Source of the DNA: Methylobacterium durans
GTDB lineage: Bacteria > Pseudomonadota > Alphaproteobacteria > Rhizobiales > Beijerinckiaceae
Length of the DNA: 64,000 nucleotides
NCBI RefSeq assembly: GCF_003173715.1
Contig: NZ_CP029550.1
Coordinates: forward strand, 434,001-498,000
Reading direction: 5' to 3'
A model generated the notes under the pieces. That model saw only the letters and a program-made list of their open reading frames with translations. It made no database searches and was not told where the DNA came from. Of this stretch, positions 30,063-50,223 are shown piece by piece. A program made the position numbers and the translations under genes. Numbering within the stretch: position 1 is the stretch's first letter; every line of letters begins with the position of its first letter.

Positions 30063-32222
30063 TCAGAGGTGCTCGACCGCGGTGCCGAAGCGCTGCCGCA
30101 CCAGATTCACCCCCGCGCCGCGCAGGATCCCGATCCAGGTCTCTCCGCCGTCGCGAAACACCCGCAGATCAACCATCTGCTTCCCGACGCTGAAATCCAC
30201 CAACGTGAGCGCCGGTAGCCAGTCCGGCAGGTGCGGGTCAGCCAGGATCGTCGAGCATCTAGTGTCGACCCGGATGCCCAGAAGAGCATGCAGTAGGCTG
30301 AACACCGAGCCCGCCGCCCAAGCCTGGGGGACGTTCGCTCCGAGATACTGCACTGGGAAAGGCGAGTCGGACCGGCTCGTTCCGGCGAACACCTCCGGCA
30401 GACGATGCAGCATGAAGCGATCGGCCGCCGCGATCAGGCCGGCCGCGATGCGGGCCGCCTCGGTGCGGAAGCCGTACTGGGCCAGCCCAATCGCGATCAG
30501 GCCGTTGTCATGCGGCCAGACTGCGCCGAGCTGGTAGTCGTGCGGGTTGTAGGCTGGATGATCCGCCGACAGCGTGCGCACGCCCCAGCCGCTGAACATG
30601 TCCTCGGCCATCAGCCGCCGCGCCACGGCCTCGGCCCGCTCGGGTGGCACGATCCCCGACCACAGCAGGTGACCGGGGTTCGAGCAGACGCTCATCACCC
30701 GCCGCTTCTTGGAGTCGAGGCACAAGGCATAGAACTGTGCGCTCTCATCCCAGAACACGGCGTTGAAGTGCCGGTGGAGATCGCGCGCCTTGTCCCTGAG
30801 CGCACGTGCCTGATCGGGCCGATCGAGTGCGTCGTAGATTTCGGCCATACGGCGCCAAGCGTCGTAGACGTAGCCCTGCAATTCGCACAGCGCCTTCGGC
30901 GCGGGCACATCGTCGCCGTTCTCGTCAAGGACAGCGTTTCCTGCGTCCTTCCAGCCCTGGTTCTCGGCCCCGTCCGGCGCGCGGCGCTGGTACTCCTGGA
31001 AGCCGTCCCCGTCCATGTCGCCGTAGTCGTCGATCCAGGCGAGGCAGCGCTCGGCCGCAGTGAGGTGGCGCTCGATCAAGTCGCGGTCGCCCGTGAACTG
31101 CCAGGCGTGGTGCAACAGGATGAGGTAGAGCGGTGTGGCGTCGGCGGTGCCGTAGTAGGGCCAGTACGGGTTCAGGTGCAGGGTGGCCATCTCGCCGTGA
31201 CGCAGCTCGTGGGGGATCTTGCCCGGCTGCATGTCGCGTGTGTCGTCGGTCTCGCCGGCCTGGTAGCGAGCTAACATCTCCAGCGCGCCTCGAGCGAAGT
31301 CCGGGTAGATCGGCACGGTCTGGATCGCGCTGATCAGGCTGTCGCGTCCGAACAGGGCGGCAAACCACGGGATGCCGGCGGCTGGCACGAAGGTCTTGAA
31401 GTCCGTGCTCTCGAACGGAAGGCGCAGGGCGGAGAGGTCGTCGAAGGACTGGTCGTAGAGTTGCTGTAAACCGGCATGGGGCGTGCGCAGGCGCGTGGCC
31501 CCATCGCGCCAGTCGCGCAGGGCAGCAGCCGGCCTGGACTGCTCGCGCTCGGCGAAGGTGACGCTTGGCCCGTCGAGCGTGCCGTCACCGTCGATCCAAC
31601 GATAGGCGAGGTCGGTGCTCCAGGACTGCTGAGGATCGAGTTCGACCAGAAAGCGTAGCGCGCCGTCCCGCAGGACCGGCCTGGGCGCGCCGTCCGCCGG
31701 ACCGACCGAGAGCCCGCGACGAAAGCTGCCGTTGGTGTGGACCGACGCGAGGCAGCGCTCCTCGGGAGACCAATGGGTGAAGGTCTCGCCACGCGCGACG
31801 ATGCGGTGGGACTTCACGTCGAAGATGTCGGCGAAGTCGCAGGACAAGTGCACGGCGAGGGAGAGACGCACGCGGATACGGTTGTGGTTACACAGCTTGA
31901 GTGTCTCGCGCATGCCGCCCTGGTCGAGCAGGCGCGAGAGGGCGAGGCTGACGCTGCCGGCGGGCACTTCGCCGTCGTCTTTGGGCAAGGCCGGGTTCAC
32001 CAGCACGATCTGGGCTGCGAAGTGGTCGGTGGCGGCGGAATTGAGCACCTGCCAAGGCCGATCATCGACCGTCACGGTCCAGGCGCTGACGAGGCGGGTG
32101 TCCCGGAAAAACAGGCCGCGTTCGCTCGGTTGATGGATCTGGCCATCAACCTCAGTGATGAGCACGCTCTCGCCTACGTTGATAGTGAGCTGAGCCGGAC
32201 CGACGCCGATCTCGTAGGCCAT
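30063..32222 (-). CDS. Amylo-alpha-1,6-glucosidase / glycogen-debranching-like glycosidase
   Basis: 719 residues from the ATG at 32222, with GGAGAGG upstream. The N-terminal domain (VLITEVDGQIHQPSERGLFF, RDTRLVSAWTVTVDDRPW) is that of glycogen-debranching N-terminal proteins. The C-terminal two thirds form an (alpha/alpha)6 glycosidase barrel (FAALFGRDSLISAIQTVPIY, HGEMATLHLNPYWPYYGTAD, NPGHLLWSGIVPPERAEAVA, NPHDYQLGAVWPHDNGLIAI). Such proteins act on oligosaccharides or glycosylated compounds in the cytoplasm; no signal peptide is present. It ends the minus-strand carbohydrate cluster. Confidence 0.88.
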   Translation of the reverse strand: MAYEIGVGPAQLTINVGESVLITEVDGQIHQPSERGLFFRDTRLVSAWTVTVDDRPWQVLNSAATDHFAAQIVLVNPALPKDDGEVPAGSVSLALSRLLDQGGMRETLKLCNHNRIRVRLSLAVHLSCDFADIFDVKSHRIVARGETFTHWSPEERCLASVHTNGSFRRGLSVGPADGAPRPVLRDGALRFLVELDPQQSWSTDLAYRWIDGDGTLDGPSVTFAEREQSRPAAALRDWRDGATRLRTPHAGLQQLYDQSFDDLSALRLPFESTDFKTFVPAAGIPWFAALFGRDSLISAIQTVPIYPDFARGALEMLARYQAGETDDTRDMQPGKIPHELRHGEMATLHLNPYWPYYGTADATPLYLILLHHAWQFTGDRDLIERHLTAAERCLAWIDDYGDMDGDGFQEYQRRAPDGAENQGWKDAGNAVLDENGDDVPAPKALCELQGYVYDAWRRMAEIYDALDRPDQARALRDKARDLHRHFNAVFWDESAQFYALCLDSKKRRVMSVCSNPGHLLWSGIVPPERAEAVARRLMAEDMFSGWGVRTLSADHPAYNPHDYQLGAVWPHDNGLIAIGLAQYGFRTEAARIAAGLIAAADRFMLHRLPEVFAGTSRSDSPFPVQYLGANVPQAWAAGSVFSLLHALLGIRVDTRCSTILADPHLPDWLPALTLVDFSVGKQMVDLRVFRDGGETWIGILRGAGVNLVRQRFGTAVEHL

Positions 32223-32310
32223 GCACGCGCCTCTCCGCGATGCCCAGTGACACCGGAGTGCAGCTGCGTGCTTCCGGCGTGATCCAAACGCACAGCCCAA
32301 GGCTCAGCCG

Positions 32311-33348
32311 TCAGCGGTCGCTGAGCCGCCGGCGCGCATGAGCACTTCCGCTTGCCTCTGCCGCGAGCAGAGTTGCTCCCGCCACTGCCCCGAGGACGAG
32401 CGCGAGGCCGATCTTGAGCCAGCGCGGGTTGGCGGCGGCAACGGCGTCGCGTGAGCGCCCATCGAAGCGGCCATGTGCGCCGGGATCGGTATCGACTGCC
32501 CCGTAGAGGTTGTCCGGGCGATCGCGATCGGCCGGCACACTCGTCATCTCGCCTCTGTACCCCTGCCGTGCGAGGTATCGGTCGATCCAGCCTGGGACTA
32601 TTGCATTGCCTAGGATCGCCTTCCAGGCAGAAGCGCCGATCCAGAGCTCACGCGGCGCGTCTTGCGCTGCCGCGTAAACGTGTCGAGCAATTGCCTCCGG
32701 CTGGTAGATCGGCGGCACCGGTTCAAGCTCGCGCGGCAGCCGTGAGCGCGCCCAGTCGAACTGCGGCGTGTTGACGGCGGGCAGCTGCACCATGGTGAGC
32801 CGCACCCGACTGCCGTCGTGGAGAAGCTCGCTCCTCAGAGAATCGACGAAGCCCCGCACCGCGGCCTTTGCCGCGCAGTAGCTCGCCTGCAGCGGGATCG
32901 ACCGGTAAACCAGCGCCGATCCCACATGCACGATGGTGCCGCGATCCGCTGGGACCATGTGCTTCAGGGCTGCCAGCGTGCCGTGAACCTGGCCGAGATA
33001 GGTGACGGCGGTCGCCTGCCGGAACTCCTCGGGGCTCGTTTCCTGCACCGGCGCGTAGATGGTCACCATGGCGTTGTTGACCCAGACGTCGAGGCTACCG
33101 AATGCGGCGGTAATCTCGTCGGCAGACCGCATCAGCGCATCGGCATCCGCCACATCGGCCTGAATAGCGAGTGCTCGCCCTCCCATCCGCCTGATCTGTG
33201 TGACCGTACTGTCGAGGCCTTTGCGACCGCGCGCGATGACGCCAACACTCCAGCCGTGGCGAGCAAACTCGACCGCCACGGCTCGGCCAACGCCGGCCGT
33301 TCCCCCAGTTACTACAACTGTGCGGTTTGCGTTGTTCGGCATAGCCAT
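32311..33348 (-). CDS. Short-chain dehydrogenase with C-terminal membrane segment
   Basis: 345 residues. The Rossmann motif TVVVTGGTAGVGRAVAVEFA and the NNAMVT stretch mark an SDR. The catalytic Ser-Tyr-Lys lie in VHVGSALVYRSIPLQASYCA followed by AKAA (SxnYxxxK). After the SDR domain (about 250 residues) there is a linker and a hydrophobic segment (WLKIGLALVLGAVAGATLLA) near the C-terminus, suggesting a membrane tether. The neighbouring sugar-oxidising genes suggest an alcohol or sugar substrate, but none can be named. Confidence 0.88.
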   Translation of the reverse strand: MAMPNNANRTVVVTGGTAGVGRAVAVEFARHGWSVGVIARGRKGLDSTVTQIRRMGGRALAIQADVADADALMRSADEITAAFGSLDVWVNNAMVTIYAPVQETSPEEFRQATAVTYLGQVHGTLAALKHMVPADRGTIVHVGSALVYRSIPLQASYCAAKAAVRGFVDSLRSELLHDGSRVRLTMVQLPAVNTPQFDWARSRLPRELEPVPPIYQPEAIARHVYAAAQDAPRELWIGASAWKAILGNAIVPGWIDRYLARQGYRGEMTSVPADRDRPDNLYGAVDTDPGAHGRFDGRSRDAVAAANPRWLKIGLALVLGAVAGATLLAAEASGSAHARRRLSDR

Positions 33349-33438: not shown

Positions 33439-34341
33439 TCAGATGGGCGAATGCAGTGGAGCCTCTCCGAACAGTGGACGCGCCAAGCCTGGCACTCCTG
33501 GACGGCAGCGAAACAGACCGCCCTCATGCGGCTGCCCGGGCTGCCCATGGGTCGCGCTGGTCACATAAAGAGTCTCAAGGTCGTCTCCGCCGAACGCGAC
33601 CATGGTTGGGTTCTGAACGGGTAGCAGCACCTCGCGGTCCAACCGGCCGTCCGGGGCGTAGCGGTGCAGGCGGCCGCCACGATGAATGGCACTCCAGTAG
33701 AAACCGTCCCGATCGACCGCACCACCATCCGGAACACCGACCTGATGAGGAATGGTCACAAGGTTTCGCCGAGCGCCAAGCCGGCCCTGCTCAGCATCAA
33801 AGGCGATCGCCTCGATCCGGCCGTCCTTCGTATGCGCCATGTAGAAGGTGCGCCCGTCCGGGCTCCAAGCGAAGCCGTTTGCTGTTAGCGCCACCTCGTC
33901 GTGCCGGACGAGACCGTCCGCGACGGTGAACGAGTAGATGTGCCCAGCCTCAGGCGATGCCTCGACGCCTGGTTCCGGCTCGAACATCGTTCCAAGCCAG
34001 AGCCGACCGGCGGGATCGCAGTCACTCTCGTTGAAGCGATGCGTCCTGGGATTGAATGGCGGCTCCGCCAAGTGGGTCAGGTTCCCGCGGGCGAAGCCGA
34101 GTGCGAACACGCCCGAGCGGAGAGCAAGGATCGCACCCGAGCCGTCTGCCTGCAGTCCGAAACCCCCGATCTCCGAGGGCAGCCTCCAGTGCTCGGTCTC
34201 ACCGGAAGCCGTGTCGGTTCGATATAAGGCTGGAGCCTTTACATCGACCCAGTAGAGAGCTCCTTCGCGCGCCGCCCAGACCGGCGCCTCGCCAATGGTA
34301 GCTTGTGCATCCACGACAAGCTCAATATTCGGATCCAACAT
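33439..34341 (-). CDS. SMP-30/gluconolactonase-type lactonase
   Basis: 300 residues from the ATG at 34341, preceded by GGAGAGC. The six-bladed propeller of the family is recognised by TIGEAPVWAAREGALYWVDV (metal-binding Glu in GEAPVW), RFNESDCDPAGRLWLGTMFE, NGFAWSPDGRTFYMAHTKDG and GVPDGGAVDRDGFYWSAIHR with its conserved Asp. It would hydrolyse a sugar lactone to the acid, a natural step after GMC or glucose-dehydrogenase-type oxidation by the gene upstream. A small hydrophilic, cytosolic enzyme. Confidence 0.9.
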   Translation of the reverse strand: MLDPNIELVVDAQATIGEAPVWAAREGALYWVDVKAPALYRTDTASGETEHWRLPSEIGGFGLQADGSGAILALRSGVFALGFARGNLTHLAEPPFNPRTHRFNESDCDPAGRLWLGTMFEPEPGVEASPEAGHIYSFTVADGLVRHDEVALTANGFAWSPDGRTFYMAHTKDGRIEAIAFDAEQGRLGARRNLVTIPHQVGVPDGGAVDRDGFYWSAIHRGGRLHRYAPDGRLDREVLLPVQNPTMVAFGGDDLETLYVTSATHGQPGQPHEGGLFRCRPGVPGLARPLFGEAPLHSPI

Positions 34342-34414
34342 GGCGCGCTCTCCGCAGTGTTTTCTCAAGTTTCACGCGATTAACTCAGGACTACATCTAC
34401 CCTCTGCAAGAGCT

Positions 34415-34558
34415 TCACCGACTGTGCGATGGATGAGCAATCGTCCGCCCGGATTTGTTTGGACCTGCTGAGTGCCAGGCAGCCGATCCGTCATAGGCGA
34501 CCAGTGCTGCGGTCTCGCCGTCGCCGATCAGGCCATAATCCTCGATCAGCTTGCCCAT
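34415..34558 (-). pseudogene. Truncated N-terminus of a GH15 (glucoamylase/trehalase-like) gene
   Basis: From the ATG at 34558 the frame reads MGKLIEDYGLIGDGETAALV, then AYDGSAAW, the typical start of GH15 proteins, and then loses similarity and stops at 34415. About 28 family residues remain of an expected 600. The start overlaps the end of the GMC oxidoreductase gene, so the glycosidase was once the next gene of the operon. Confidence 0.65.
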
Positions 34559-36288
34559 GCGAGGGCTCGCTTGGGCGAGGCCGACGCCGCGCCGGAGAGG
34601 TCTCCGCACGCGGCCAAAGCCTTGATCCGGTCAGCCGTGCGGCAGGCGATCGCCTGGATCGTCAGGGACGGGTTCACCCCGCCCACGGTCGGGAAGACCG
34701 AGCCGTCGCAGATCCAGAGGTTTGGGATATCCCAGGAGCGGCAATCGGCATTCACGACGGAGGTCCGCGGGTCGTCGCCCATGCGCGCCGTGCCGTTGAG
34801 GTGGCAGGTGTCGTTCTCCTGGTCCCAGATCTCGCGCCCGCCCGCCGCTTCCAGGGCTTGGCGCATGAACGCCAAAGCGTGCCGGTTCATCGCTCGGTCG
34901 TTGTCGCACCAGGAGTACGTCACACGTGCAATCGGCAGCCGGTACTGGTCCGTCTCCTCGGCAAGCGTGACGCGGTTGCGTGCCTGCGGCATGTACTCGG
35001 AGACGACCTTCAGCCCTGCTACGTGATTGTAGCGCTGCATCTCGGCGACAAGCGCCTCGCCCCACAGCCCACGGGCAGTCGCCTGCGTCTTGCCCCAAAG
35101 GGTCGGCAGCGGGCCCTGGCTCATGTAGCAGTAGCCGCCGGAGAAGTCCTTGCCGCGATCCTCGTAGTTCCAGTGCTCGGTGATCGCGAGCGAAGGCGGG
35201 CCCTTGTAGGAGCGGATCTCCTCGTCGAACACGCCCCAGACCGCCTGGTTGCCCTGCACCGTGAGGTAGCGGCCGACGAGGCCCGAGGAATTGGCGAGAC
35301 CGTCCGGAAATTCGGAGCTGGCCGACATCAGCAGGAGGCGGGGCGTCTCGATGGCGTAGCCAGCCACCACGACGTTGCGCGCCCGCTGAAAGCGCCAGCG
35401 GCCCTCCCGGTGGTAGTGCACGCCGGTGGCGCGGCCGTGCTTCGTCTCGATCCGCCCGACCATAGCGAGGTCGCGGATCTCCGCGCCGGCTTTCAGGGCA
35501 CGCGGCAGCCAGGTGTTGAGCACGCTCTGCTTGGCATTCGTGGAGCAGCCCAGCGTACAGAAGCCGCGGTAGACACAGGGCGGCGCGTCCCCCCGGGGCG
35601 CCGAGAGCGTCGCAATCGGGGTTGGCGTCCAGGCAATCCCTAACGCTTCAGCCCCGCGCGCCAGCACCTTTGCGGAGGCGCTCAGTTCATGAGCGCGGTA
35701 AGGGTAACGTGAGCGCTTTGGCCCCCACGGGTAGGTCACCGGGCCCGCAATCTTCAGGGTCTGCTCGACTTCCCCGTAGTAGTCCCACATCTCACGCCAA
35801 TCGAGCGGCCAGTCGGCGCCGTAGCCGAGGAGGCTGCGCGCCTTGAACCAGTCCGGCCTGAAGCGCAGCGAGACCATGGCGAAATGCACGGTCGAGCCGC
35901 CCACTGACTTGCCGGAATTGTTCGAGCCCAACTGCAGCGGGTTCTCGCCGTCGACGATGCGCTCGTCCGTCCAGTAGAGCTTCGACTGATGCATCTCGTC
36001 GGAGGCAAAATCCTCCAGGGGGCGCCAGTACGGCCCAGCATCGAGCGCGGCCACCGTGAAACCGTGCTCGGCGAGCTTGGCCGCGAGGGTGCCGCCGCCC
36101 GCACCCGTGCCGACAATCACGAAGTCGACCTCATCGTCGTCGACGTACTGGCGCATCGGCACCCACGCGCCGATCCGCATCACGTTCGGAGCGCGACCAT
36201 TGCCGGCGCGCGGAACCTGCCTCGGATCGTCGCCCGGCGTGCGTTCCTGCGGATTGTCGGCGGCGTTGCCGGTTCCCGGTAGTCTCAT
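34546..36288 (-). CDS. GMC-family FAD oxidoreductase (gluconate/sugar dehydrogenase large subunit)
   Basis: 580 residues from the ATG at 36288. The dinucleotide motif FVIVGTGAGGGTLAAKLAEH binds FAD. QLGSNNSGKSVGGSTVHFAM and YRGFCTLGCSTNAKQSVLNT are typical of gluconate 2-dehydrogenase large subunits, and the C-terminal HLNGTARMGDDP and GGVNPSLTIQAIACRTADRI hold the catalytic His/Asn pair region. There is no Tat signal within the N-terminus. The small subunit lies directly upstream (stop at 36305, 16 bases away), so the two form one complex. Substrate is probably a sugar or sugar acid. Confidence 0.9.
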   Translation of the reverse strand: MRLPGTGNAADNPQERTPGDDPRQVPRAGNGRAPNVMRIGAWVPMRQYVDDDEVDFVIVGTGAGGGTLAAKLAEHGFTVAALDAGPYWRPLEDFASDEMHQSKLYWTDERIVDGENPLQLGSNNSGKSVGGSTVHFAMVSLRFRPDWFKARSLLGYGADWPLDWREMWDYYGEVEQTLKIAGPVTYPWGPKRSRYPYRAHELSASAKVLARGAEALGIAWTPTPIATLSAPRGDAPPCVYRGFCTLGCSTNAKQSVLNTWLPRALKAGAEIRDLAMVGRIETKHGRATGVHYHREGRWRFQRARNVVVAGYAIETPRLLLMSASSEFPDGLANSSGLVGRYLTVQGNQAVWGVFDEEIRSYKGPPSLAITEHWNYEDRGKDFSGGYCYMSQGPLPTLWGKTQATARGLWGEALVAEMQRYNHVAGLKVVSEYMPQARNRVTLAEETDQYRLPIARVTYSWCDNDRAMNRHALAFMRQALEAAGGREIWDQENDTCHLNGTARMGDDPRTSVVNADCRSWDIPNLWICDGSVFPTVGGVNPSLTIQAIACRTADRIKALAACGDLSGAASASPKRALAWAS

Positions 36289-36304: not shown

Positions 36305-37018
36305 TCACCAGCGGCTGACCCGCAGGTTGGCTCGACGAGCCTCTTCCTCGTGGCCAGGCTTGGCTTCGGCGGCCTCCCAAGGATCCCGGCGGCCGAAATC
36401 CATGCGCACGTAGCCGCGCGGGCTCGCGGGCCCGCCCCAGCCAATCTCGTTCCAAGCGGTGGGATGCGCGTAGTAGGCTTTCACCACGTCGGGCAGTACC
36501 CGCTGCTTGAAGAACAGGTCGCTCGCCATGTCCTCCCAGGCGGGATCCGTCAGCGCACCGGCCTCCGCGGCGCGCAAGAGCTTGTCCTGCGCCCAATCGC
36601 CGAGTTCGTGGAAGTGCGCGCCGAAGGCGCGCTGTGCCTCCGCGTCGAGGGCCTGCAGACCGCGCCGCCACGCTTCGCCCTGCTCGGGCAGACCGGCATA
36701 GCGGTAGCCGTCCCTCTCGCCCGCGTGCAGCTTGTGGTCGACGAGGGCGGCCACTGGGATCCAGCCGGGACGGCCGGGCGGTTGCGGCACGATGCGCTCG
36801 CAGATCGCCTTCAGCGTCGGCCATTCGTCGTCGGTGAAGAAGTGGTGCGTCTCTGGCCCGATGCTCAGCCGCTCCGCGATGACCTCGCGGGTCATCGCAT
36901 TCCAGGAGGGGCCGTCGCGCTTCGAGAGGACATCGTAGCCGGGGTAGAGATCACGTCGCGGATCATTCTCCCGGGCTGTCTTCAGCGGATCAGATGCTGG
37001 GATGCGGTGCTCAGGCAT
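36305..37018 (-). CDS. Gluconate 2-dehydrogenase subunit 3 family protein
   Basis: 237 residues matching the small subunit of membrane-bound gluconate 2-dehydrogenases: FFTDDEWPTLKAICERIVPQ near the N-terminus, HKLHAGERDGYRYAGLPEQG, and FFKQRVLPDVVKAYYAHPTA near the end. In known complexes this subunit carries the Tat signal for export; here the N-terminus has no evident twin-Arg signal, which is unusual. It overlaps the unknown membrane protein gene upstream by 8 bases and precedes the GMC subunit by 16 bases. The third, cytochrome c, subunit is absent from the cluster. Confidence 0.85.
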   Translation of the reverse strand: MPEHRIPASDPLKTARENDPRRDLYPGYDVLSKRDGPSWNAMTREVIAERLSIGPETHHFFTDDEWPTLKAICERIVPQPPGRPGWIPVAALVDHKLHAGERDGYRYAGLPEQGEAWRRGLQALDAEAQRAFGAHFHELGDWAQDKLLRAAEAGALTDPAWEDMASDLFFKQRVLPDVVKAYYAHPTAWNEIGWGGPASPRGYVRMDFGRRDPWEAAEAKPGHEEEARRANLRVSRW

Positions 37019-38057
37019 GCTCGCGCCTCTCCAGAAGATCGAGGGCAGCCAGGCCGGCGAGCGCCAGGCCCGTGAAGGCGGGTGGCGCCGGGAGCGGAGG
37101 CCCGCTGAGCAGGTTCTGGCTCCAGTTGCGCCAACCGCCCATTTTGCGGCTGATCCCGTAGGTGTGAAAGCCGACGCCGCCCAGACCGAGCGCGGCCGTT
37201 GCCCAGAGCCAACCTCGTGTGAGTGGCCGACGTCCGCTCCCTCTCACTGCGGCCCAAGCCAGCAGCGCGCCCGCGAGAGGGGGAACGCTCACGGGAAGGA
37301 ACATCGCAGGATTGTGGTAGGCGCCTCGGAAGTGCAGAAGCCCTGCCTCGCCGACAGTTCCGGCAAGGCCGAGGGCCGTCCCAGCCGCGAGCAGCGGTCC
37401 GGCCGGCAATCCAAGCAGAAGCGCATCCCTCGGATCGGCATCGCGCACGCGCTCGGCCGCGCCTCCGAGCACGCCGGCGAGCGTCAGGGCGAAGGGCGCA
37501 CCGATGGGGGCTGCGTAGAACAGGTTCTCCCAGCGGTAGCCACCTTCGCGTTTGCCGACGTTGTAGGCGTGAAAGCCAAGCCCCACGACACCGGTCAGGC
37601 CAGCCAGCGCCTGCACGGCATGACGTACGCGCGAGGACCTCGCTCCAGCATCGCCGGCCCCGTGCAACGAGGAGGCGAGCACGGCGCTCGACACCAGGAC
37701 AGGTGTGTACATCGCTCGGTTGAAGTACTGCCCCCGATAGTGCTCCAGACCGCTGTCGAGCAGCACTGAGGCGGCAAGCAGAGTTGAGCCATGATTGAGC
37801 CGCTGCGCAGCGTTCGTGTTGGCGACGTCCGACCTCGGGTGGAAGTGGCGCCTCGGGCCCGAGCCGCTGTGCTGAGGGCGGCCGGCAGCGAACCACGTCA
37901 ACAAACCGACTCCCGCGGCAGCGAGTGCGAGGGTTGCAAGCGGGTGGACGTTGACCGAGGTCAGCCCGCGTTCTCTCACTCGGAGTTTGGCGCGCTCCCG
38001 ATTGCCTCCTGCCTGCAGCTCATCCTGGCCCGCCTCAGGCAGCATAGCGCTCCGCAT
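37011..38057 (-). CDS. Unknown polytopic membrane protein with internal duplication
   Basis: Up to 348 residues; the start is uncertain, since the first ATGs overlap the end of the upstream gene by 23 bases. It has many hydrophobic helices (LATLALAAAGVGLLTWFA and others). Two repeats are visible: GLEHYRGQYFNRAMYTPV followed later by GLGFHAYNVGKREGGY, and GLLHFRGAYHNPAMFLPV followed by GVGFHTYGISRKMGGW. The conserved His residues in each repeat could ligate haem or a metal, or bind quinone. It overlaps the small subunit gene by 8 bases and so may be the membrane or electron-transfer partner of the flavoprotein complex. No family was recognised. Confidence 0.7.
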   Translation of the reverse strand: MRSAMLPEAGQDELQAGGNRERAKLRVRERGLTSVNVHPLATLALAAAGVGLLTWFAAGRPQHSGSGPRRHFHPRSDVANTNAAQRLNHGSTLLAASVLLDSGLEHYRGQYFNRAMYTPVLVSSAVLASSLHGAGDAGARSSRVRHAVQALAGLTGVVGLGFHAYNVGKREGGYRWENLFYAAPIGAPFALTLAGVLGGAAERVRDADPRDALLLGLPAGPLLAAGTALGLAGTVGEAGLLHFRGAYHNPAMFLPVSVPPLAGALLAWAAVRGSGRRPLTRGWLWATAALGLGGVGFHTYGISRKMGGWRNWSQNLLSGPPLPAPPAFTGLALAGLAALDLLERREHA

Positions 38058-39144
38058 CCTTGTGCTTGAAGGTCAGGCCATGGCCAGGACAGCTCAGGTC
38101 GGGCTTTATCCGCCCGTTACACGGGACCGGTGCGCCCTCGAACAGCATCTGCTCGATGCGCACATGGTCGTGGAACCACTCGAGGTGCCGGAAGCGTGGG
38201 AGCGAGCAGGCGGCATGAAGATGAAGCGCCGGCGCACAGTGGCCGGAAAGGTCGATGTGGTGGGCGGCACAGAGTGTGCCGACAGCCAGGAAACCGGTGA
38301 CGCCGCCGCAGCGGGTGATGTCGGCCTGCTGCACGTCGACGGCCCCGGACGCCAGCATGCAGCGAACGTCATCGAGATTATAGGCGTACTCGCCCGCCGC
38401 GATCTCCATTCCGGCTGGCGCCCGCTGACGCACGAAACGCAGGCCGTCAAGGTCGTCGCTGCTCACTGGCTCCTCAAACCAGCGCACCCCAAACTCCGCT
38501 GCGGCCTTAGCAAACTGCAGGGCGCGTTTTGGGGTCAGGGCGCCATTCGCGTCGATGAACAGGGCCGCCTCGCCAATGGCCGAGCGGGCTACCTTCATGC
38601 GCGCTGGGTCACGGGCTGGATCGCTGCCGACCTTCATCTTCACGGCCGTGCAGCCGTCGCGGTCGACCCAGCCTCCGAGTTGCTCCCGCAGCTGCGCGTC
38701 AGAGTAACTCGTGAAGCCCCCGCTGCCGTAGATCGGAGTGGCAGACCGCGTCGCGCCGAGAAGGCGCACCAGCGGCAGATCGAGGAGCCGCGCCTTCAGA
38801 TCCCAGAGCGCCACATCGAGCGCGGAGATCGCGGTCGCGGCCAGACCGGCGCGTCCGATGTTGCGCACCTGCCGCCAGAGCTTTGCGTTGAGGCTTGGAA
38901 TGTCGAAGGCATTGCCGCCCTCGAGCAGTGGCCCCAGCGTCTCGTTGATGAGACTGGCGTCACTTACGTGAGAGTAGGTGTAGCCGAGGCCTGAGCAGTT
39001 CGCGGCCTCGACTATGACCACCACCAGGGTGGTGTTCTGCCACGAGAAGGTGCCGTCGGCCCCGGGGGCGTCGGTCGGGATCGTATAGGCCCGTGCCCTG
39101 ATCGCCGCGATCTGTGCGTCTGGCGGCATCGCCAAGCCTCTCAC
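38035..39144 (-). CDS. Mandelate racemase/muconate lactonizing enzyme family (enolase superfamily) protein
   Basis: 369 residues; the second Met (39129) is an equal start candidate. The C-terminal barrel has KMKVG (catalytic Lys), the metal ligands FIDANGALT (Asp), WFEEPVSSDD (Glu) and AAGEYAYN (Glu), then QADITRCGGVTGFLAVGTLC and a His in SGHCAPALHLHAACSLPRFR. These are the marks of acid-sugar dehydratases or cycloisomerases. In an operon with a sugar dehydrogenase and lactonase it could dehydrate the acid product. The substrate is not determined. Confidence 0.88.
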   Translation of the reverse strand: MRGLAMPPDAQIAAIRARAYTIPTDAPGADGTFSWQNTTLVVVIVEAANCSGLGYTYSHVSDASLINETLGPLLEGGNAFDIPSLNAKLWRQVRNIGRAGLAATAISALDVALWDLKARLLDLPLVRLLGATRSATPIYGSGGFTSYSDAQLREQLGGWVDRDGCTAVKMKVGSDPARDPARMKVARSAIGEAALFIDANGALTPKRALQFAKAAAEFGVRWFEEPVSSDDLDGLRFVRQRAPAGMEIAAGEYAYNLDDVRCMLASGAVDVQQADITRCGGVTGFLAVGTLCAAHHIDLSGHCAPALHLHAACSLPRFRHLEWFHDHVRIEQMLFEGAPVPCNGRIKPDLSCPGHGLTFKHKDAERYAA

Positions 39145-39162: not shown

Positions 39163-40953
39163 TCACTTGTGGCCCCCGGGCAGCACGGAGGCGAGCACCT
39201 GACGTGCCGTGTCGGCGAGGAGATGACTCTCCTTCGGGTCGCCCTTCCAGAGCATCGCCATGAAATCCTTGGCCTGCTCGAAGGTGATGTGCGGCGGCAG
39301 CGGCGGCACCTCGGGATCGGTCTTCACCTCCAGCACCACCGGGCGGTCGCTGGCCAGCGCCTCATCCCAGGCGGCCGCCATCCGCTCCGGATCGTCCACG
39401 TAGATGCCCCGGAGGCCGATCAGCTCGGCGAACTTGTGGTAGGGCACGTTGGGGATGACTTGAGTCGCCTCGAACTTCGGGTCGCCCTCCTGTACGCGCT
39501 GCTCCCAGGTGACTTGGTTCAAATCCTCGTTGTTGAACACGCAGCAGATCCAGGTCTTGTTGGACCAGCGCTGCCAGTATTTCTTGACCGTAATCAGCTC
39601 GGCCATATTGTTCATCTGCATGGCGCCGTCGCCCACGAGCGCGATCACCGGCCGGTCGGGATGGGCGAACTTGGCGGCGATCGCGTAGGGCACGGCTGCC
39701 CCCATCGAGGCGAGCCCGCCCGAGAGCGAGCACATCATGCCGCGCCGGATCTTCAGGTCGCGGGCGTACCAGTTGGCGCACGAGCCGGAATCGGAGGTGA
39801 TGATCGCTCCCTCGGGCAGGCGCGGCGAGAGCTCCCAGGCGACGCGCTGCGGGTTCACCGGATTGGCCTTGGCCAGGGCGCGGTTCTCCGCATCCTTCCA
39901 CCAGTCAGCGACCCCCTGCTCAATGGTCTTGCGCCAGGAGGTGTCGGACTTCTGCTCCAAGAGCGGCAGGAGCGCCCGCAGCGTCTCGGCGGCGTCGCCC
40001 ATGAGCGGCACCTCCATGGGATAGCGGATCGAGAGCATCCCGGGCTTGATGTCGATCTGCACCCCCCGTGCCTGGCCGGGTTTTGGCAGGAACTCGGAAT
40101 AGGGGAAGCCTGAGCCGATCATCAGGAGCGTGTCGCACTCCATCATGAGGTCCCAGCTCGGCTTGGTGCCGAGTAGCCCGATCGAGCCGGTGACCCAGGG
40201 CAAATCATCCGGCAGGGCGGCCTTGCCGAGCAGCGCCTTGGCGCAACCCGCCTGCAGCTTGTTGGCGACCGCGATGACCTCGTCCGTAGCGTGGAGCGCG
40301 CCGGCTCCGACCAGGATCGCGACCTTACTGCCGGCATTAAGTACATCGGCGGCGCGCCGCAGGTCAGCGTCGAAGGGCACCATCTTGGGATCGGTGTAGC
40401 CGACACCCGACTGCAGGGTTCCATGTTTGCGCGGCGGCTCCTCGTAGGGCACGTCCTGCAGGTCGTTTGGGAAAATGAGGGCGGTCACGGCCCGCTCGCC
40501 TTTGGCGATGCGGATGGCGCGATCCACCAAATGGCGTGTCTGAGCAGGTGCGCTGGCCTGCTGGACGAAGGCGCCGGCCACATCCTTGAACATGGATTGC
40601 AGGTCGAGTTCCTGCTGGTAATGCCCGCCGACGGCAGTGCGTGCCTGCTGACCCGTGATTGCGAGCACCGGCATGTGATCGAGCCGCGCATCATAGAGGC
40701 CTGTGATCAGGTGGCTGGCTCCAGGGCCAGAGGTGGCCATGCAGACGCCGAGTTCTCCTGTAAACTTGGCGTAGGCGGAGGCCATGAAGGCGGCCATCTC
40801 CTCGTGGCGCACCTGGACGAACTCGATCGGTTCTTCAGTGCGATTAAGGGCTCCGAGGAGGCCGTTGATGCCATCGCCCGGGTAGCCGAACACGATCCGT
40901 ACTCCCCATTCCGACAGCCGCTTCCAGAAGAAATCACCGACGGTGTCAGCCAT
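39163..40953 (-). CDS. Thiamine-pyrophosphate enzyme (pyruvate oxidase/acetolactate-synthase-like)
   Basis: 596 residues from the ATG at 40953, with AAGGAAGG upstream. The catalytic Glu lies in VRHEEMAAFMASAYAKFTG. The TPP motif begins LVGDGAMQMNNMAELITVKK and continues to CCVFNNEDLNQVTWEQ, and the middle FAD/regulatory domain holds VAILVGAGAL. It closely follows POXB-like proteins annotated as thiamine-pyrophosphate-requiring proteins. It would decarboxylate a 2-oxo acid. It is the first gene of the tight minus-strand operon. Confidence 0.9.
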   Translation of the reverse strand: MADTVGDFFWKRLSEWGVRIVFGYPGDGINGLLGALNRTEEPIEFVQVRHEEMAAFMASAYAKFTGELGVCMATSGPGASHLITGLYDARLDHMPVLAITGQQARTAVGGHYQQELDLQSMFKDVAGAFVQQASAPAQTRHLVDRAIRIAKGERAVTALIFPNDLQDVPYEEPPRKHGTLQSGVGYTDPKMVPFDADLRRAADVLNAGSKVAILVGAGALHATDEVIAVANKLQAGCAKALLGKAALPDDLPWVTGSIGLLGTKPSWDLMMECDTLLMIGSGFPYSEFLPKPGQARGVQIDIKPGMLSIRYPMEVPLMGDAAETLRALLPLLEQKSDTSWRKTIEQGVADWWKDAENRALAKANPVNPQRVAWELSPRLPEGAIITSDSGSCANWYARDLKIRRGMMCSLSGGLASMGAAVPYAIAAKFAHPDRPVIALVGDGAMQMNNMAELITVKKYWQRWSNKTWICCVFNNEDLNQVTWEQRVQEGDPKFEATQVIPNVPYHKFAELIGLRGIYVDDPERMAAAWDEALASDRPVVLEVKTDPEVPPLPPHITFEQAKDFMAMLWKGDPKESHLLADTARQVLASVLPGGHK

Positions 40954-41439
40954 GGGAGGATCCTTCCTTGTCATCAAAGGAGGCTAACCAGCTGCACAGG
41001 CATTCGCGTCATAGCGAAGCTCAGGCGGCCGACATGGGTCAACGGAATGCTTGAATCGTGTGTTCCGAGGATGGGATGCACAGGCCGCATGGCAGTTGTG
41101 TCTGCCTTCGCTGGCAGATTTACTTGGCTTGGCCGCTGGATTAAGTCGCCGGGCTGGACCCGCAGCCGTGGTATTGAGCGCCGGCTGCGTCCTCACATCT
41201 GACCCACACGCCACCATCGCGTTTTCTCGGCAACGCCTCGGGGCGGATCAACAAACCACAGCGTAGCCGAGCATCCCCTCGTGAGCTGCAGGCGAGGCAT
41301 CCGGAATACTTCACGCCAATAGAAAAGCTTTTCGAAGCATGTCGATCTTGCAACCCTGAGTTGCGTTAAAGTACGCACAAAGCAGCCCGCGATCGAAGAG
41401 AATATAACCCAATGAGGTTGCATCAGAGGCAATATAGTT
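40954..41439. other. 486-bp divergent intergenic region
   Basis: It separates the minus-strand sugar-acid operon from the plus-strand Crp/Fnr gene and probably holds both promoters. No gene is supported; open frames here are antisense or low-complexity. No clear FNR-type box was seen by eye. Confidence 0.5.
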
Positions 41440-43994: not shown

Positions 43995-44329
43995 GGTGGT
44001 TGTGCAGGGGGCGGCCACTTCGCCTGGCTTGGCTTCTCGGTTTAGCGGCCTGCCCCATTTCCTCAGCGGTGGCGGAGACGATCCAGATCCGAGTTAAGGA
44101 TCTCGGGTTTGTTCCAGCGCAGGTTTCTGCCCGCGTGGGTGACACTGTCGAGTGGGTCAGCCGCGACTTCGTCGCGCATACGGCCACAGAACGCGACGGG
44201 AGGTGGGATGTAGCCATCCCAGCAGAAGGGAAGGGCCGCATCACCCTCACGCGAGCAGGCGCGGTGGCGTACTATTGTCGGTATCATCCGGGCATGATCG
44301 GCAGCATCTCGATCACTGCGCCACCTTAG
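43991..44329 (+). CDS. Exported cupredoxin (plastocyanin/amicyanin-like)
   Basis: 112 residues from a GTG that overlaps the previous stop. A signal peptide (LAWLLGLAACPISSAVAE) precedes a single cupredoxin domain. The copper ligands are visible: His in FVAHTATERD, then Cys-x-x-His-x-x-Met in YYCRYHPGM. It could move electrons in the periplasm. Paired with DUF4142 and a catalase-like peroxidase, an oxidative-stress role is plausible but unproven. Confidence 0.88.
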   Translation: MRWLCRGRPLRLAWLLGLAACPISSAVAETIQIRVKDLGFVPAQVSARVGDTVEWVSRDFVAHTATERDGRWDVAIPAEGKGRITLTRAGAVAYYCRYHPGMIGSISITAPP

Positions 44330-44364
44330 GCATAATGAGAACCAAAGGCGCTGGGAGGACCCTC

Positions 44365-45354
44365 ATGCGGCAGACAAAAATCGGGCTCGCCTTCGTGGCG
44401 AGCCTCCTGGCTCTGACGACCGGCATCCCCGCCTTCGCCGAGGAGCCCTCGACCGCCGAGCAGACCATCGACGCGATGAACAAGCTGTTCGGCAAGCATC
44501 CGGGCTTGCGGGCCAACCACGCCAAGGGCGTCGTGGCGGAAGGGAGCTTCACGCCCTCGCCCGAGGCCGCCAAGATCAGCAAGGCATCTCTGTTCCAGGG
44601 CCCGCCCGTACCCGTGACGATCCGCTTCTCGGATGCGACGGGCGTGCCCACCATCGCGGACGGGGCCGCCAACGCGAACCCGCACGGCATGGCCCTGAAG
44701 TGCAAGCTCGCCGACGGCTCGGAGATGGACGTCGTCGTGAACGCGCTGAAGTTCTTCCCCGTCGCCACGGGCGAGGAGTTCCGCGACCTTCTGAGAGCGG
44801 CCGCTGAGAGCGGTCCGGATGCTGCCCATCCGACGGCGCTGGAGCGCTTCGCCGCCAGCCACCCGGCTGCCGCCACAGCCGGCAAGACCGCCAAGACCCC
44901 GTCGAGCTTCGCCCGCCAGACCTACAACGGCGTCAACGCCTTCATCTTCGTGGACAAGGATGGCAAGCGTCAGCCGTTCCGCTACCGCTTTGTACCGGCA
45001 GAGGGCGAGGAGATCCTCACGCCTGAGGAGGCGGCCAAGCGCGGACCGAACTATCTCATGGACGAGATCGGTCCGCGCCTCGCGCGTGAGCCCGCGAGGT
45101 TCCGAGTGCTGGCACAGCTTGCAGAGCCGGGCGACCCGACGAACGATGCCACCAAGCCCTGGCCGGACGACCGCCGCACGGTTGATCTCGGCACCCTGAC
45201 GGTGACGAAGGCTGTGGCCGACAGCGCGAACGCCGAGAAGGCACTGCTGTTCATGCCGAACGCGCTGACCGACGGAATCGAGGTCTCCGACGATCCGCTG
45301 ATCGATGCCCGCGTCCAGGCCTACGCGGTCTCATTCAGCCGTCGCTCGCAGTGA
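44365..45354 (+). CDS. Exported catalase-family peroxidase
   Basis: 329 residues from the ATG at 44365, which has GGGAGGA at good spacing. A signal peptide (IGLAFVASLLALTTGIPAFA) is followed by a small catalase-like domain: NHAKGVVAEGSFTPSPEAAK with the distal His, VTIRFSDATGVPTIADGAAN, ANPHGMALKCKL, NALKFFPV, and YRFVPAEGEEILTPEEAAKR. It is about two thirds of a true catalase and lies in the periplasm, so peroxidase activity against organic or hydrogen peroxide is likely. A fragment of a similar gene lies at 12318-12395. Confidence 0.9.
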   Translation: MRQTKIGLAFVASLLALTTGIPAFAEEPSTAEQTIDAMNKLFGKHPGLRANHAKGVVAEGSFTPSPEAAKISKASLFQGPPVPVTIRFSDATGVPTIADGAANANPHGMALKCKLADGSEMDVVVNALKFFPVATGEEFRDLLRAAAESGPDAAHPTALERFAASHPAAATAGKTAKTPSSFARQTYNGVNAFIFVDKDGKRQPFRYRFVPAEGEEILTPEEAAKRGPNYLMDEIGPRLAREPARFRVLAQLAEPGDPTNDATKPWPDDRRTVDLGTLTVTKAVADSANAEKALLFMPNALTDGIEVSDDPLIDARVQAYAVSFSRRSQ

Positions 45355-46294: not shown

Positions 46295-47022
46295 GTGGCG
46301 GCAAACGGCCACGTTAACGCCCGAGCTAGACTTGCCCACGCCTGCATTGCTTCCCGTGAATTCTACGTCTGAACCCAGGTAGTAGGTGCTGTATTATCAA
46401 GCGGGCGCCGAGAGGGGGCACGAACGCTGATGATCCTTGCGGTGCGAGCTTTGGTATAGACGAGGCTAAATTGGTTGTACGCGGTCTCGAGCAAGCAGGA
46501 CAGGCGATAGTTAAAACAAAGATAATGATACAGCGGATCCAGCAATCACAAGTATGGGTTTTCCGCTGCGAAGGCATGCAGCTTTATCAACTTGCTGTCG
46601 GCACGTTTATTGCCTCCTGTATCGGCCTTATCCCAGTTTAAATCTAGTAAATTGTGAGCTTTCTTAACAAATGCAGGCGCGGTGGCGGCGACTAGCCCAT
46701 ACCCTCCGGCCCTAAATCGACTATTATAGTTTTCCTAAATTAGGCTTTGAGTTCAGCGTCGATTTGGCTTGGCCAAAATCGGCGAACAGAAGAGGCGCGC
46801 CAAGAGGATTGTTGTCTACTCGGCGCCGCATTGCACGGGCCCCTGCTGCCGAGATCAACGTCGTCACAATATCGCGGCTGCAAGCCATGGTGGCGTGACG
46901 CCGGCTCGTCTTGGAGGTTTGAGGCCAGACACCGGGCGCCAGCTATTTCGTGAGAGCCGGGTGGCAGCACCAGGGGCTGCCTCCTGCTCGTCCGTGGTCA
47001 GGACTGCGAAGGAGGCGAGAGG
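46295..47022. other. 728-bp AT-rich region upstream of the RTX peroxidase
   Basis: Bases 46320-46760 are much richer in A+T than their surroundings. No gene is supported; frames of 60-100 codons have no recognisable content. The stretch lies next to an IS3 remnant and directly upstream of the large peroxidase gene, and so probably holds its promoter and acquired sequence. Confidence 0.45.
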
Positions 47023-50000
47023 ATGGGAGCGCAAGCAGACCGGCGTTCGACGCAGCAACCGCCCCCGGCAGGCGTGAAACATATCGAGCTCCGTCCGCAG
47101 GATCTGGATCTGCTTCTGACCCAAGCGAGCGACCCAGCCCTGCACCGCAACGTCAGCGGGTTCGAGAACAACCTCACGCCCGGTCGTGAACTCTGGGGAG
47201 CGGCCAGTCAGCCCTTCCTGCGCCTGTCGCCCGCTCAGTTCGAGCAGACAGAAACTCAGACCAGCCCGAACGCAGCGCGCGTCACCTCCGTCGACGGGAC
47301 GTCTCTCCTCCCGAACCCTCGGCTGGTCAGTGACCTGATCGGCCAGCAACCTCTCGATGCCGGCGGCAACACGATCAGCCTGCCGAACAGCTTCGGCGGC
47401 AACCTTCTCCTGATGTCCTTCGGGCAGTTCTTCGATCACGGCCTCGATTTCTACGCCCGCGGCGGCGGCCCCGATCTCGTCCCCATCAGCGACGTGGACG
47501 ATCGGCTGGCGACCGCCCAGCTCCGCCTCGACGCAATTCGCGCGGCGCAGGGACTTCCCTCCGTCCAGATCGACGCGACCGACAACCTCCTCAAGCAATT
47601 GGGGGATCACCCTCCGCCAGGGTTCGAATTCCTGACCGGCAGCCGCGCCGGACGCTTCGACCTTGTGAACGGGCGTGTCGTGCTTGGTGCCGATGGCGCG
47701 CCCGTGATGAACAACAGCACCGGGACGGCGCATCTCAACAAGACGGCACCGTTCGTCGACCAGAGCCAAACCTACGGCTCCGAGCCGAAGATGGCGGACC
47801 TGTTGCGCGAGAGTGCGCGCACCGCAGCCGGCGACCTGATCCCGGACGGCAACGGCGGCTGGGTGAAGACCCATCGCCTGCTCGACGGAGCCCAGGAAGT
47901 GGGCCCGGACGGGATCACCCGGGGCAATCTGCCGAGCTATGCCGATGTCTTGGTCAACAATGGCGTGCCCCGAGACGTCATCGATCGGCTGTTGGCCGAC
48001 GTCGCGGACAAGACGATCACGAACATCGACGCTTGGGCCCGCCTCACGACAGCTCCGGGCTTCGTGAACTTCAGTGACATCGGCGACGCCAAGCACACGA
48101 TCATGCTGGGCGACAAGAATGATGCGCTCGCATCGCCGTTCGGGCCGGACGGTGTCACGCCGAACCCGACATTCGATTTGCAGAGCCTTCTATCCTACCA
48201 CATTGCCGGGGATCACCGTGCCGACGAGAACGTCGCGCTGACCGCGGTCCACACGGTCTGGTACCGCGAGCACAATTTCGAAGCTGAGCAGATCCGGGCG
48301 CTGCATCCGGACTGGAGTGCCGAACAGGTGTTCCAGGCCGCCAAGATCGTCACCTCGGCCGAGTACCAGCGCACCGTCTTCACCGAATTCGCCGACGGGA
48401 TGTCCGGCGGCATCCCCGGCCCATCGCACGGCTTCGGCGGGTACAACCCAAACGTCAATCCCGGCATCTCGGAGGAGTTCGCGGGCGCCATGTATCGCGT
48501 CGGCCACTCCATGATCAACGAGACCATTCCGTACGTGGATAGCGACGGCGCGATGCGGGAGGTGCCGCTGTTCTCGGCCTTCCTGAACCCGGCCATGTTC
48601 GATGGCCGGGATCCGCTCACGGACGGGGTCGGTGGTGCGGCTTCCATCATTGCAGGCGAGGTTCAGGTCGCGCACCAGCGGATCGACGAGCAGATCGTCG
48701 AGGTGATCCGCAGCAAGCTGCTCGGGCTGCCGCTCGACCTCTACGCAGCCAATATCGAGCGGGGCCGCGAGGCCGGGGTGCCGACCCTCGATACCTTCCG
48801 GCGCTACGTGAGCGAGAACACCAGCCTCATCGATCAGGCTGGTCAGGCATCGAACTACACGGCGACCCAGCCCGAGAAGGTCCCCGGCCTCATGCCCTAC
48901 GAGACCTGGGCCGAGTTCGGGGCCAACCTGCGCGGCACACCGGAGGAGCAGGCCGAGCTCCTAGCGCTGTTCAAGGCCGCCTACGGCGAGGCGGATATCC
49001 ATGTCGGCGATGTCGACCTGTTCGTCGGCGGCCTCGCGGAGAAGCCGTTCGGTGCGAGCCAGATGGGCTCGACCTTCACCTGGATCTTCCAGGAGCAACT
49101 CGACCGGCTGCAGGAGGGGGACCGCTTCTACTACTTCAACCAGCTCAAGGATGCGCCGCTGCTTCTCGCCGATATCGGCTCCCAGCATTTCTCCGACATC
49201 GTCATGCGGAACACCGGGCTCGAGCATCTCCACTTCGCGGCCTTCAAGGTTGCGGAGACGATCGAGCTTGGCCCAGAGGATCGAACCTACGAGCAAGATG
49301 GCCTTCCGACCACGCCCGGTGCGGCCTTGGTGCTCGTCGGCAACGCGCATGACAACACGATCGTGGTAACGGCTGGCGACCACACGCTCTACGGCGAGGC
49401 GGGAGACGACACCCTGCAGGGCGGCTCGGGGCTTGATGCCCTGCACGGCGGCACCGGCGACGACGTCCTGATGGCCGGAGCGGGCCCGCTCGGCGCCTTC
49501 GCCTACGGCGAGGATGGCGACGACGAGCTCCGCGGCAACAGCGGCGACGACAACCTGATCGGCGGCGCGGGCGACGATGTCATCGAGGGTGGCGCCGGCA
49601 AGGACTTCCTTTCCGGCGGCTCCGGCGACGATCGGATCATGCCGGGCGCCGATCCGACCATGATCGATGGCGGAGAGGGCAACGACACCATCGTGTTCAG
49701 TGCCGCCTCGGAGGGCGTGACCGTCGATCTCGGCATCGCGCTGCAGCCCATCGTGGGTCTCGGCGGCTACGCGCAGGGTGACGTGATCAGCGGGATCGAG
49801 AACATCATCGGCTCACGCGCGGCCGATACCTTGACCGGGGACCAAGCCGACAATCGGATCTCAGGCGGTCGTGGGGACGATCACCTCGATGGTGCAGCCG
49901 GCGACGACCTGGTGATCGGTGGCACCGGAGCAGACGTCCTGCGTGGTGGCTCGGGAGATGACACGCTCCGGGGCGGCAAAGGCGCGGACACGTTTGTGTT

Positions 50001-50223
50001 CCACCCCGAGGACATAGGCCAAGACACGATCACCGACTTCGATCCGGAAGCGGACCACCTCGATCTACGCGAGCTCGGACTGTTCGACGTTGCGGATGTT
50101 CTTTCCGTCACGAGCGAGGATCGGTGCGGAGACGCCGTGATCGCCGTCAAGGGTATCTCGATCGCGCTTGAAGGCGTCAGCGAGGCGCAACTTCAGGCGG
50201 CATGCAGCACGTTTGTCGTGTAG
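47023..50223 (+). CDS. Haem peroxidase with C-terminal RTX calcium-binding repeats
   Basis: 1066 residues, starting after a strong AAGGAGG. The N-terminal 720 residues are an animal-type haem peroxidase: MSFGQFFDHGLDFYARGGG (distal Asp-His near 138), DENVALTAVHTVWYREHNFE, and GAMYRVGHSMINETIPYVDS with the proximal His near 495. The C-terminus holds glycine-rich GGxGxDxL repeats (about 785-1005: EAGDDTLQGGSGLDALHGG, GNSGDDNLIGGAGDDVIEGG, GAAGDDLVIGGTGADVLRGG) that bind Ca2+ and serve as type I secretion signals. No signal peptide and no secretion genes are nearby. It would be secreted and oxidise halides or organic substrates with peroxide. Confidence 0.92.
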   Translation: MGAQADRRSTQQPPPAGVKHIELRPQDLDLLLTQASDPALHRNVSGFENNLTPGRELWGAASQPFLRLSPAQFEQTETQTSPNAARVTSVDGTSLLPNPRLVSDLIGQQPLDAGGNTISLPNSFGGNLLLMSFGQFFDHGLDFYARGGGPDLVPISDVDDRLATAQLRLDAIRAAQGLPSVQIDATDNLLKQLGDHPPPGFEFLTGSRAGRFDLVNGRVVLGADGAPVMNNSTGTAHLNKTAPFVDQSQTYGSEPKMADLLRESARTAAGDLIPDGNGGWVKTHRLLDGAQEVGPDGITRGNLPSYADVLVNNGVPRDVIDRLLADVADKTITNIDAWARLTTAPGFVNFSDIGDAKHTIMLGDKNDALASPFGPDGVTPNPTFDLQSLLSYHIAGDHRADENVALTAVHTVWYREHNFEAEQIRALHPDWSAEQVFQAAKIVTSAEYQRTVFTEFADGMSGGIPGPSHGFGGYNPNVNPGISEEFAGAMYRVGHSMINETIPYVDSDGAMREVPLFSAFLNPAMFDGRDPLTDGVGGAASIIAGEVQVAHQRIDEQIVEVIRSKLLGLPLDLYAANIERGREAGVPTLDTFRRYVSENTSLIDQAGQASNYTATQPEKVPGLMPYETWAEFGANLRGTPEEQAELLALFKAAYGEADIHVGDVDLFVGGLAEKPFGASQMGSTFTWIFQEQLDRLQEGDRFYYFNQLKDAPLLLADIGSQHFSDIVMRNTGLEHLHFAAFKVAETIELGPEDRTYEQDGLPTTPGAALVLVGNAHDNTIVVTAGDHTLYGEAGDDTLQGGSGLDALHGGTGDDVLMAGAGPLGAFAYGEDGDDELRGNSGDDNLIGGAGDDVIEGGAGKDFLSGGSGDDRIMPGADPTMIDGGEGNDTIVFSAASEGVTVDLGIALQPIVGLGGYAQGDVISGIENIIGSRAADTLTGDQADNRISGGRGDDHLDGAAGDDLVIGGTGADVLRGGSGDDTLRGGKGADTFVFHPEDIGQDTITDFDPEADHLDLRELGLFDVADVLSVTSEDRCGDAVIAVKGISIALEGVSEAQLQAACSTFVV

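Follow-up and report, generated by a model that had tools for sequence, protein, structure and literature searches.

A duplicated membrane protein linked to a GMC/subunit 3 dehydrogenase, and its possible role in place of cytochrome c

We analysed a 64,000-nucleotide stretch of the Methylobacterium durans genome (the window), focusing on a membrane protein of an unnamed family, here called MEM, that is encoded within a flavoprotein dehydrogenase operon (Table 1). In strand order, the genes encode a thiamine pyrophosphate (TPP) enzyme, a mandelate racemase/enolase superfamily protein (MR_MLE), MEM, a gluconate 2-dehydrogenase subunit 3 family protein (SUB3), a GMC flavoprotein (GMC), a lactonase (SGL), an SDR oxidoreductase and a glycogen-debranching-type hydrolase. 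The original prediction, made from the sequence letters, described an 8-base overlap between MEM and the subunit 3 gene with the GMC gene following, and both can be read in the open reading frames (ORFs), with the overlap at 37011-37018. On its other side, the start of MEM is overlapped by MR_MLE over 23 bases.

Table 1. Features of the operon in window coordinates; locus counts refer to the distinct wide loci described in the text
Feature	Position	Strand	Description
MEM	37011..38057	(-)	348 amino acids, ATG start; membrane protein, unnamed family, two four-helix repeats
MEM repeat 1	37416..37820	(-)	Residues 80-214; invariant or nearly so: D101, H106, M116, G156, G159, H163
MEM repeat 2	37014..37415	(-)	Residues 215-348; invariant: G233, E237, H242, G245, M252, G291, G294, H298
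SUB3	36305..37018	(-)	Gluconate 2-dehydrogenase subunit 3 family PF13618; no Tat signal seen
GMC flavoprotein	34546..36288	(-)	Start inferred at ATG 36288; C-x5-C-x3-C
MR_MLE	38035..39144	(-)	Mandelate racemase/enolase superfamily; probable sugar-acid dehydratase; optional cassette member
TPP enzyme	39163..40977	(-)	Best solved relative pyruvate dehydrogenase [cytochrome] 3ey9; frequent cassette member
SGL	33439..34368	(-)	SMP-30/gluconolactonase-like lactonase; homologue in 22/97 distinct loci
SDR oxidoreductase	32311..33348	(-)	Homologue in 43/97 distinct loci
Glycoside hydrolase, glycogen-debranching type	30066..32303	(-)	GDE_N_bis, GDE_C; downstream; stop-to-stop limits

Duplication, conservation and predicted fold of MEM

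The two repeats with duplicated His motifs that had been claimed for MEM are present in its ORF exactly as described: the protein carries HYRGQYFNRAMYTPV and HFRGAYHNPAMFLPV, then GFHAYNVGKREGG and GFHTYGISRKMGG. Aligned directly by BLASTP, the repeats share 36% identity over 121 columns (61 bits, E 7e-18), and hhalign relates them with a probability of 99% (E 4.9e-18). MEM is an internal duplication, not a chance resemblance.

Conservation was read from an alignment of 345 rows, 344 of them distinct as aligned, made up of the window sequence together with 240 database proteins, 101 full-length locus stretches and 3 further loci; we excluded three locus stretches that were partial, and some rows represent one protein with differing ends. 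The duplicated His residues, whose lack of conservation had been named among the outcomes that would refute the original prediction, are kept almost without exception (H106 in 343 of the 344 rows; H163, H242 and H298 in all 344). Each of M116, M252, G159, G291, G294, E237, G245 and Q314 is likewise found in 344/344 rows, and D101 in 342. H132, a His of repeat 1 without an equivalent in repeat 2, serves as an internal control and is kept in 202 rows. Both repeats also place Gly at positions -4 and -7 from the helix-3 His.

An AlphaFold model of MEM based on 121 sequences (pLDDT 88.7) places two helices at the N terminus ahead of a core of eight, with four in each repeat, arranged in parallel; repeat 2 folded alone gives a pLDDT of 90.6. 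By the helix limits of the model, H106, H163, H242 and H298 lie on core helices 1, 3, 5 and 7, near the same helix end, so the four conserved His are predicted to sit near one membrane face.

MEM matches no Pfam family at E 10 and no NCBIfam family at E 1, and a Pfam scan of 121 aligned homologues gave no convincing assignment, each family appearing in at most 8 of them with a best E of 0.0015. It has neither a sequence match to any solved chain nor a convincing fold match in the PDB. A protein search nevertheless scored 3942 homologues at E 0.001 among 7999 candidates (120 of the 3942 were listed), and MEM is a widespread bacterial membrane family with thousands of unnamed homologues. Its distribution is patchy: counting the genome itself and fragments, it occurs in 6/61 relatives, in 4/349 genomes across the phylum, and in 9/298 and 40/249 in further samples. 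The gene cassette around MEM ranges over Alphaproteobacteria and Betaproteobacteria and, on a plasmid, Deinococcota.

Several smaller observations concern the family. A MEM homologue is present in Nitrosococcus oceani (P0242). Many shorter database models (P0242, P0278) begin at the conserved Met of repeat 1 and thus omit H106; these seem to have been annotated with too late a start and not to represent a genuine short protein. In one genome (G025), a 74-amino-acid open frame (L022) matches part of MEM and has no SUB3 or GMC; the same genome holds a complete cassette elsewhere (L018), and L022 is a remnant copy.

Linkage of MEM to the dehydrogenase subunits

We retrieved wide flanks for 102 loci (97 distinct), all selected for having MEM; small remnants (L022 and L034-L036, for instance) and several other places with a full-length MEM fall outside this set. 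Among the 97 distinct loci, SUB3 is found in 94, GMC in 92, the TPP enzyme in 75 and MR_MLE in 71 (SDR and SGL are given in Table 1), and MEM, SUB3 and GMC occur all three together in 92. Of the five loci that lack GMC, four (L005, L006, L205 and L236, the last two retaining SUB3) are truncated by a contig end, and the fifth belongs to the draft genome G727.

Co-occurrence was counted in 299 genomes of the family of G400, a sample apparently identical for the MEM and SUB3 searches. Any MEM match was found in 38 genomes and a full-length MEM in 33; SUB3 matched 87 genomes at E 0.001 and 33 at 200 bits or more, with the next score at 80 bits. Full-length MEM and SUB3 of at least 200 bits mark the same 33 of the 299 genomes. 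After pieces of one copy were merged, the 44 MEM match rows gave 41 places, 35 of which have a SUB3 of at least 200 bits within 4 kb. The remaining six comprise five fragmentary or broken copies and the copy of G727. G810 carries MEM and SUB3 next to each other, each of them split into pieces.

The same arrangement recurs on plasmids, where a search with MEM returned 22 matching records. All nine that were opened (from Deinococcus peraridilitoris, Nitrobacter, Komagataeibacter, Croceicoccus, Methylocystis, Rhizobium, Burkholderia multivorans, Bradyrhizobium and Lichenicola) have the order MEM-SUB3-GMC. Eight of them are annotated as a hypothetical protein followed by subunit 3 and GMC genes, and the Komagataeibacter record names a putative membrane protein, a hypothetical protein and a putative oxidoreductase at the same places. 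The TPP gene lies on the opposite strand in the B. multivorans record, and the enolase-type gene is absent from those of Croceicoccus and Methylocystis. MEM is a near-obligate partner of the SUB3/GMC genes; a neighbour check had been proposed with the original prediction, and homologues do not occur mostly apart from this pair (92/97 loci; the same 33/299 genomes).

SUB3 itself matches PF13618 with 88.8 bits (E 5.2e-25; cut-off 23.4 bits) and is the single PF13618 gene of the host genome. GMC contains both domains of its family above cut-off (GMC_oxred_N, E 5.8e-21; GMC_oxred_C, E 5e-30). Since Methylobacterium homologues share a Met-Arg-Ile/Leu-Pro-Gly stretch at the ATG at 36288, this ATG is probably the true GMC start, in place of the mechanical TTG at 36444. 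The best-scoring solved chains are glucose dehydrogenase 6a2u (E 4.4e-51, over query residues 102-608) and fructose dehydrogenase 7w2j (E 6.1e-46). Given these relatives, and the absence of the export signal of known complexes, the earlier label of "sugar-acid dehydrogenase" appears doubtful.

According to an excerpt of the work on the Burkholderia cepacia glucose dehydrogenase (PMC6719666), Cys212, Cys218 and Cys222 of that enzyme hold a 3Fe-4S cluster and Cys213 is in a disulfide, a numbering that fits 6a2u. C290, C296 and C300 of the window GMC (mechanical ORF numbering) align with these three cluster ligands, and the disulfide Cys is not kept. The C-x5-C-x3-C motif occurs in 105 of 122 GMC alignment rows; the other 17 are pieces (13 of 23-37 residues and 4 of 198-238), with several loci counted twice. 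From the kept ligand cysteines, a 3Fe-4S cluster is predicted in the window GMC, and because the ligands of this exit cluster are kept, GMC would be expected to pass electrons to another protein.

Known GMC/small-subunit complexes include a triheme cytochrome c and bear an export signal on the small subunit. Searching stretches that include bases upstream of the genes, we found a twin-arginine translocation (Tat)-like string in 1 of 103 SUB3 stretches and 5 of 105 GMC stretches (at least two of the GMC strings fall ahead of the aligned start). The window SUB3 ORF contains RRDLY, with no hydrophobic stretch after it. The SUB3/GMC pair carries no recognisable Tat signal and would, on the best reading, be cytoplasmic.

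A cytochrome c third subunit had been said to be absent, and this holds within the range covered: no CxxCH occurs in any stop-to-stop ORF of at least 90 amino acids in the 64 kb window, the part of the host genome to which this search was confined. Within the flanks available, an ORF with at least two CxxCH lies within 6 kb of GMC in 8 of 92 loci, a count that leaves out monohaem cytochromes, one of which is annotated near the cassette in L120.

The B. cepacia flavin adenine dinucleotide-dependent glucose dehydrogenase consists of a GMC alpha subunit, a hitchhiker gamma subunit and a triheme cytochrome c beta subunit. Like this enzyme and the fructose dehydrogenase, the window operon encodes a related GMC with equally spaced 3Fe-4S ligand cysteines and a small partner, here of PF13618. 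Unlike them, it shows no Tat signal on the small subunit and no multihaem cytochrome c, and has the duplicated MEM instead. Three relatives of the same genus carry sets made up of a Tat-bearing SUB3, a GMC and a three-CxxCH protein (L157-L159). These belong to the same two soluble subunit families as the window pair (SUB3 about 20 bits, GMC 80-84 bits) but, in contrast to it, carry the Tat-like string RRQIL and a three-CxxCH ORF. Because they coexist in one genus, we view the MEM type and the cytochrome c type as alternatives. A third architecture in the genus has SUB3 fused behind an alpha/beta hydrolase (L160:3070-4524, read from sequence; L161:3897-5459, by Pfam), with GMC proteins that are nearer to the window GMC (351 and 370 bits), have a similar Cys motif and show no Tat motif.

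Possible roles of MEM

On balance, we favour the view that MEM is the membrane subunit of a cytoplasmic GMC/SUB3 dehydrogenase, replacing cytochrome c as anchor and as electron acceptor towards quinone. The GMC flavin would oxidise sugar to lactone in the cytoplasm, and electrons would go from the GMC 3Fe-4S cluster to MEM, which would anchor the SUB3/GMC pair at the membrane and hand them to quinone. As genetics, the replacement foreseen by the original prediction is well supported by linkage and co-occurrence, and it gains weight because GMC keeps its 3Fe-4S ligand cysteines. The chemistry, with haem or quinone at the His, is more tentative, and the distribution of positive charge would set the His face of MEM on the far side from a cytoplasmic partner.

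The residue pattern, from which both haem and quinone at the MEM His are inferred, perhaps favours one bis-His haem b per repeat as the cofactor. Such a haem would suit a four-helix unit because the His lie on helices 1 and 3 and the helix-3 His has Gly at -4 and -7; one per unit may carry the electrons. Taken further, and more tentatively, MEM might found a new membrane electron-transfer family, in which a pair of four-helix units, arranged in parallel and both carrying a bis-His haem b or an equivalent redox centre, link a cytoplasmic 3Fe-4S GMC to the quinone pool. It would then share an Fe-S-to-membrane role with haem b anchors such as SdhC/D or NarI, which we take to be membrane subunits that accept electrons from an Fe-S cluster, though MEM matches no solved chain in sequence and none convincingly in fold.

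The His face bears conserved polar loops (GGWxNWxQN and GPPxPAPP, for example), which could instead belong to a quinone pocket. MEM would then be a haem-free anchor with a quinone site, lined by His, Arg, Asn and Trp, and the 3Fe-4S cluster would deliver electrons directly to quinone. The PoxB-like enzyme of the operon would reduce quinone too, if, as we assume, this is a property of PoxB. However, the His, and the helix-3 Gly at -4 and -7, recur strictly in both repeats, which looks more like a prosthetic group bound by each repeat than a single pocket. A pocket on this face also meets the same topology problem as the haem, and we consider this arrangement unlikely.

Several observations weigh against MEM as the electron acceptor of GMC, topology foremost among them. 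The loops contain a mean of 10.4 Lys/Arg (K/R) in 54 residues on the non-His side, compared with 7.5 in 77 residues on the His side. K/R density is greater on the non-His side in 343 of the 344 rows, and the absolute count is higher there in 280, equal in 36 and lower in 28. Given this bias, the positive-inside rule would make the His face periplasmic, away from cytoplasmic GMC and contrary to direct docking. Nor is it obvious how four His near one face would offer a route across the membrane. The helical-wheel test gave mixed results, with the His deviating from the conserved face by 13° on helix 7, 44° on helix 3, 66° on helix 1 and 100° on helix 5, and no cytochrome b stands out among the fold-search matches. 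Two exceptions to the linkage add to this. In G727, MEM and SUB3 are on separate contigs, and 4.2 kb downstream of MEM contain neither SUB3 nor GMC. The fused architecture (L160/L161) pairs GMC and SUB3 with no MEM in about 9 kb, so GMC of this kind is not strictly MEM-dependent. For the favoured reading, either the positive-inside rule fails for MEM as the His-side loops are functional, or the site is an outer-face quinone site or another site.

A conserved face turned outwards, as the positive-inside count has it, would be natural for a transporter or channel for substrate, lactone or protons that is open to the periplasm and carries no electrons, and an import or export step would likewise account for the operon linkage. 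Yet MEM is linked most tightly to SUB3/GMC and more loosely to the other enzymes, and the transporters that Foldseek matches to MEM do not reach significance (E 0.37 or worse). Strictly kept His, Met and Gly in a parallel 4+4 duplication are also unusual for a carrier; we judge this role improbable. Least likely of all, each repeat would hold not haem but a metal site (copper or iron, for example) formed by its two His and an invariant Met or Asp/Glu.

Glucose sensors use GMC/subunit 3 dehydrogenases for direct electron transfer, and those known need a periplasmic cytochrome c. If MEM is the membrane subunit we propose, respiration would gain a new entry point in a widespread cytoplasmic version with another partner in the membrane, and a function would be assigned to a membrane family of thousands of unnamed members. 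A conserved sugar oxidation cassette would be defined across Alpha- and Betaproteobacteria and, plasmid-borne, in Deinococcota. On the more tentative reading of MEM as a new electron-transfer family, a complex without cytochrome c would let these bacteria respire their internal sugars ahead of phosphorylation.

Neighbouring genes and a suggested sugar oxidation route

The presence of a lactonase, a glycosidase, a sugar-acid dehydratase and a PoxB-like TPP enzyme beside GMC suggests that the operon encodes a route oxidising glucose-like sugars to lactone, acid and 2-keto-3-deoxy acid. The steps would run from the glycosidase through the GMC dehydrogenase, the lactonase and the sugar-acid dehydratase to the PoxB-like TPP enzyme. 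The last of these matches 3ey9, which we take to be PoxB, with E 5.2e-86. In other records, the glycosidases annotated near the cassette are GH15 or beta-glucosidase.

Among solved chains, MR_MLE matches 3cyj at E 2.2e-109 and several sugar-acid dehydratases more weakly. The 3cyj chain, presumably a Rubrobacter protein with no assigned function, is named only as a mandelate racemase-like protein; with MR_MLE so close to it, the cassette offers 3cyj a functional context.

Sensory rhodopsin transducer genes adjoin the cassette in two records (L118:4190-4567 and L120:5676-6053). Elsewhere in the window, an animal-type haem peroxidase with RTX calcium-binding repeats is encoded at 46954-50220 (+), near a catalase-family gene at 44143-45351; the two possibly form an oxidative stress island beside the operon.
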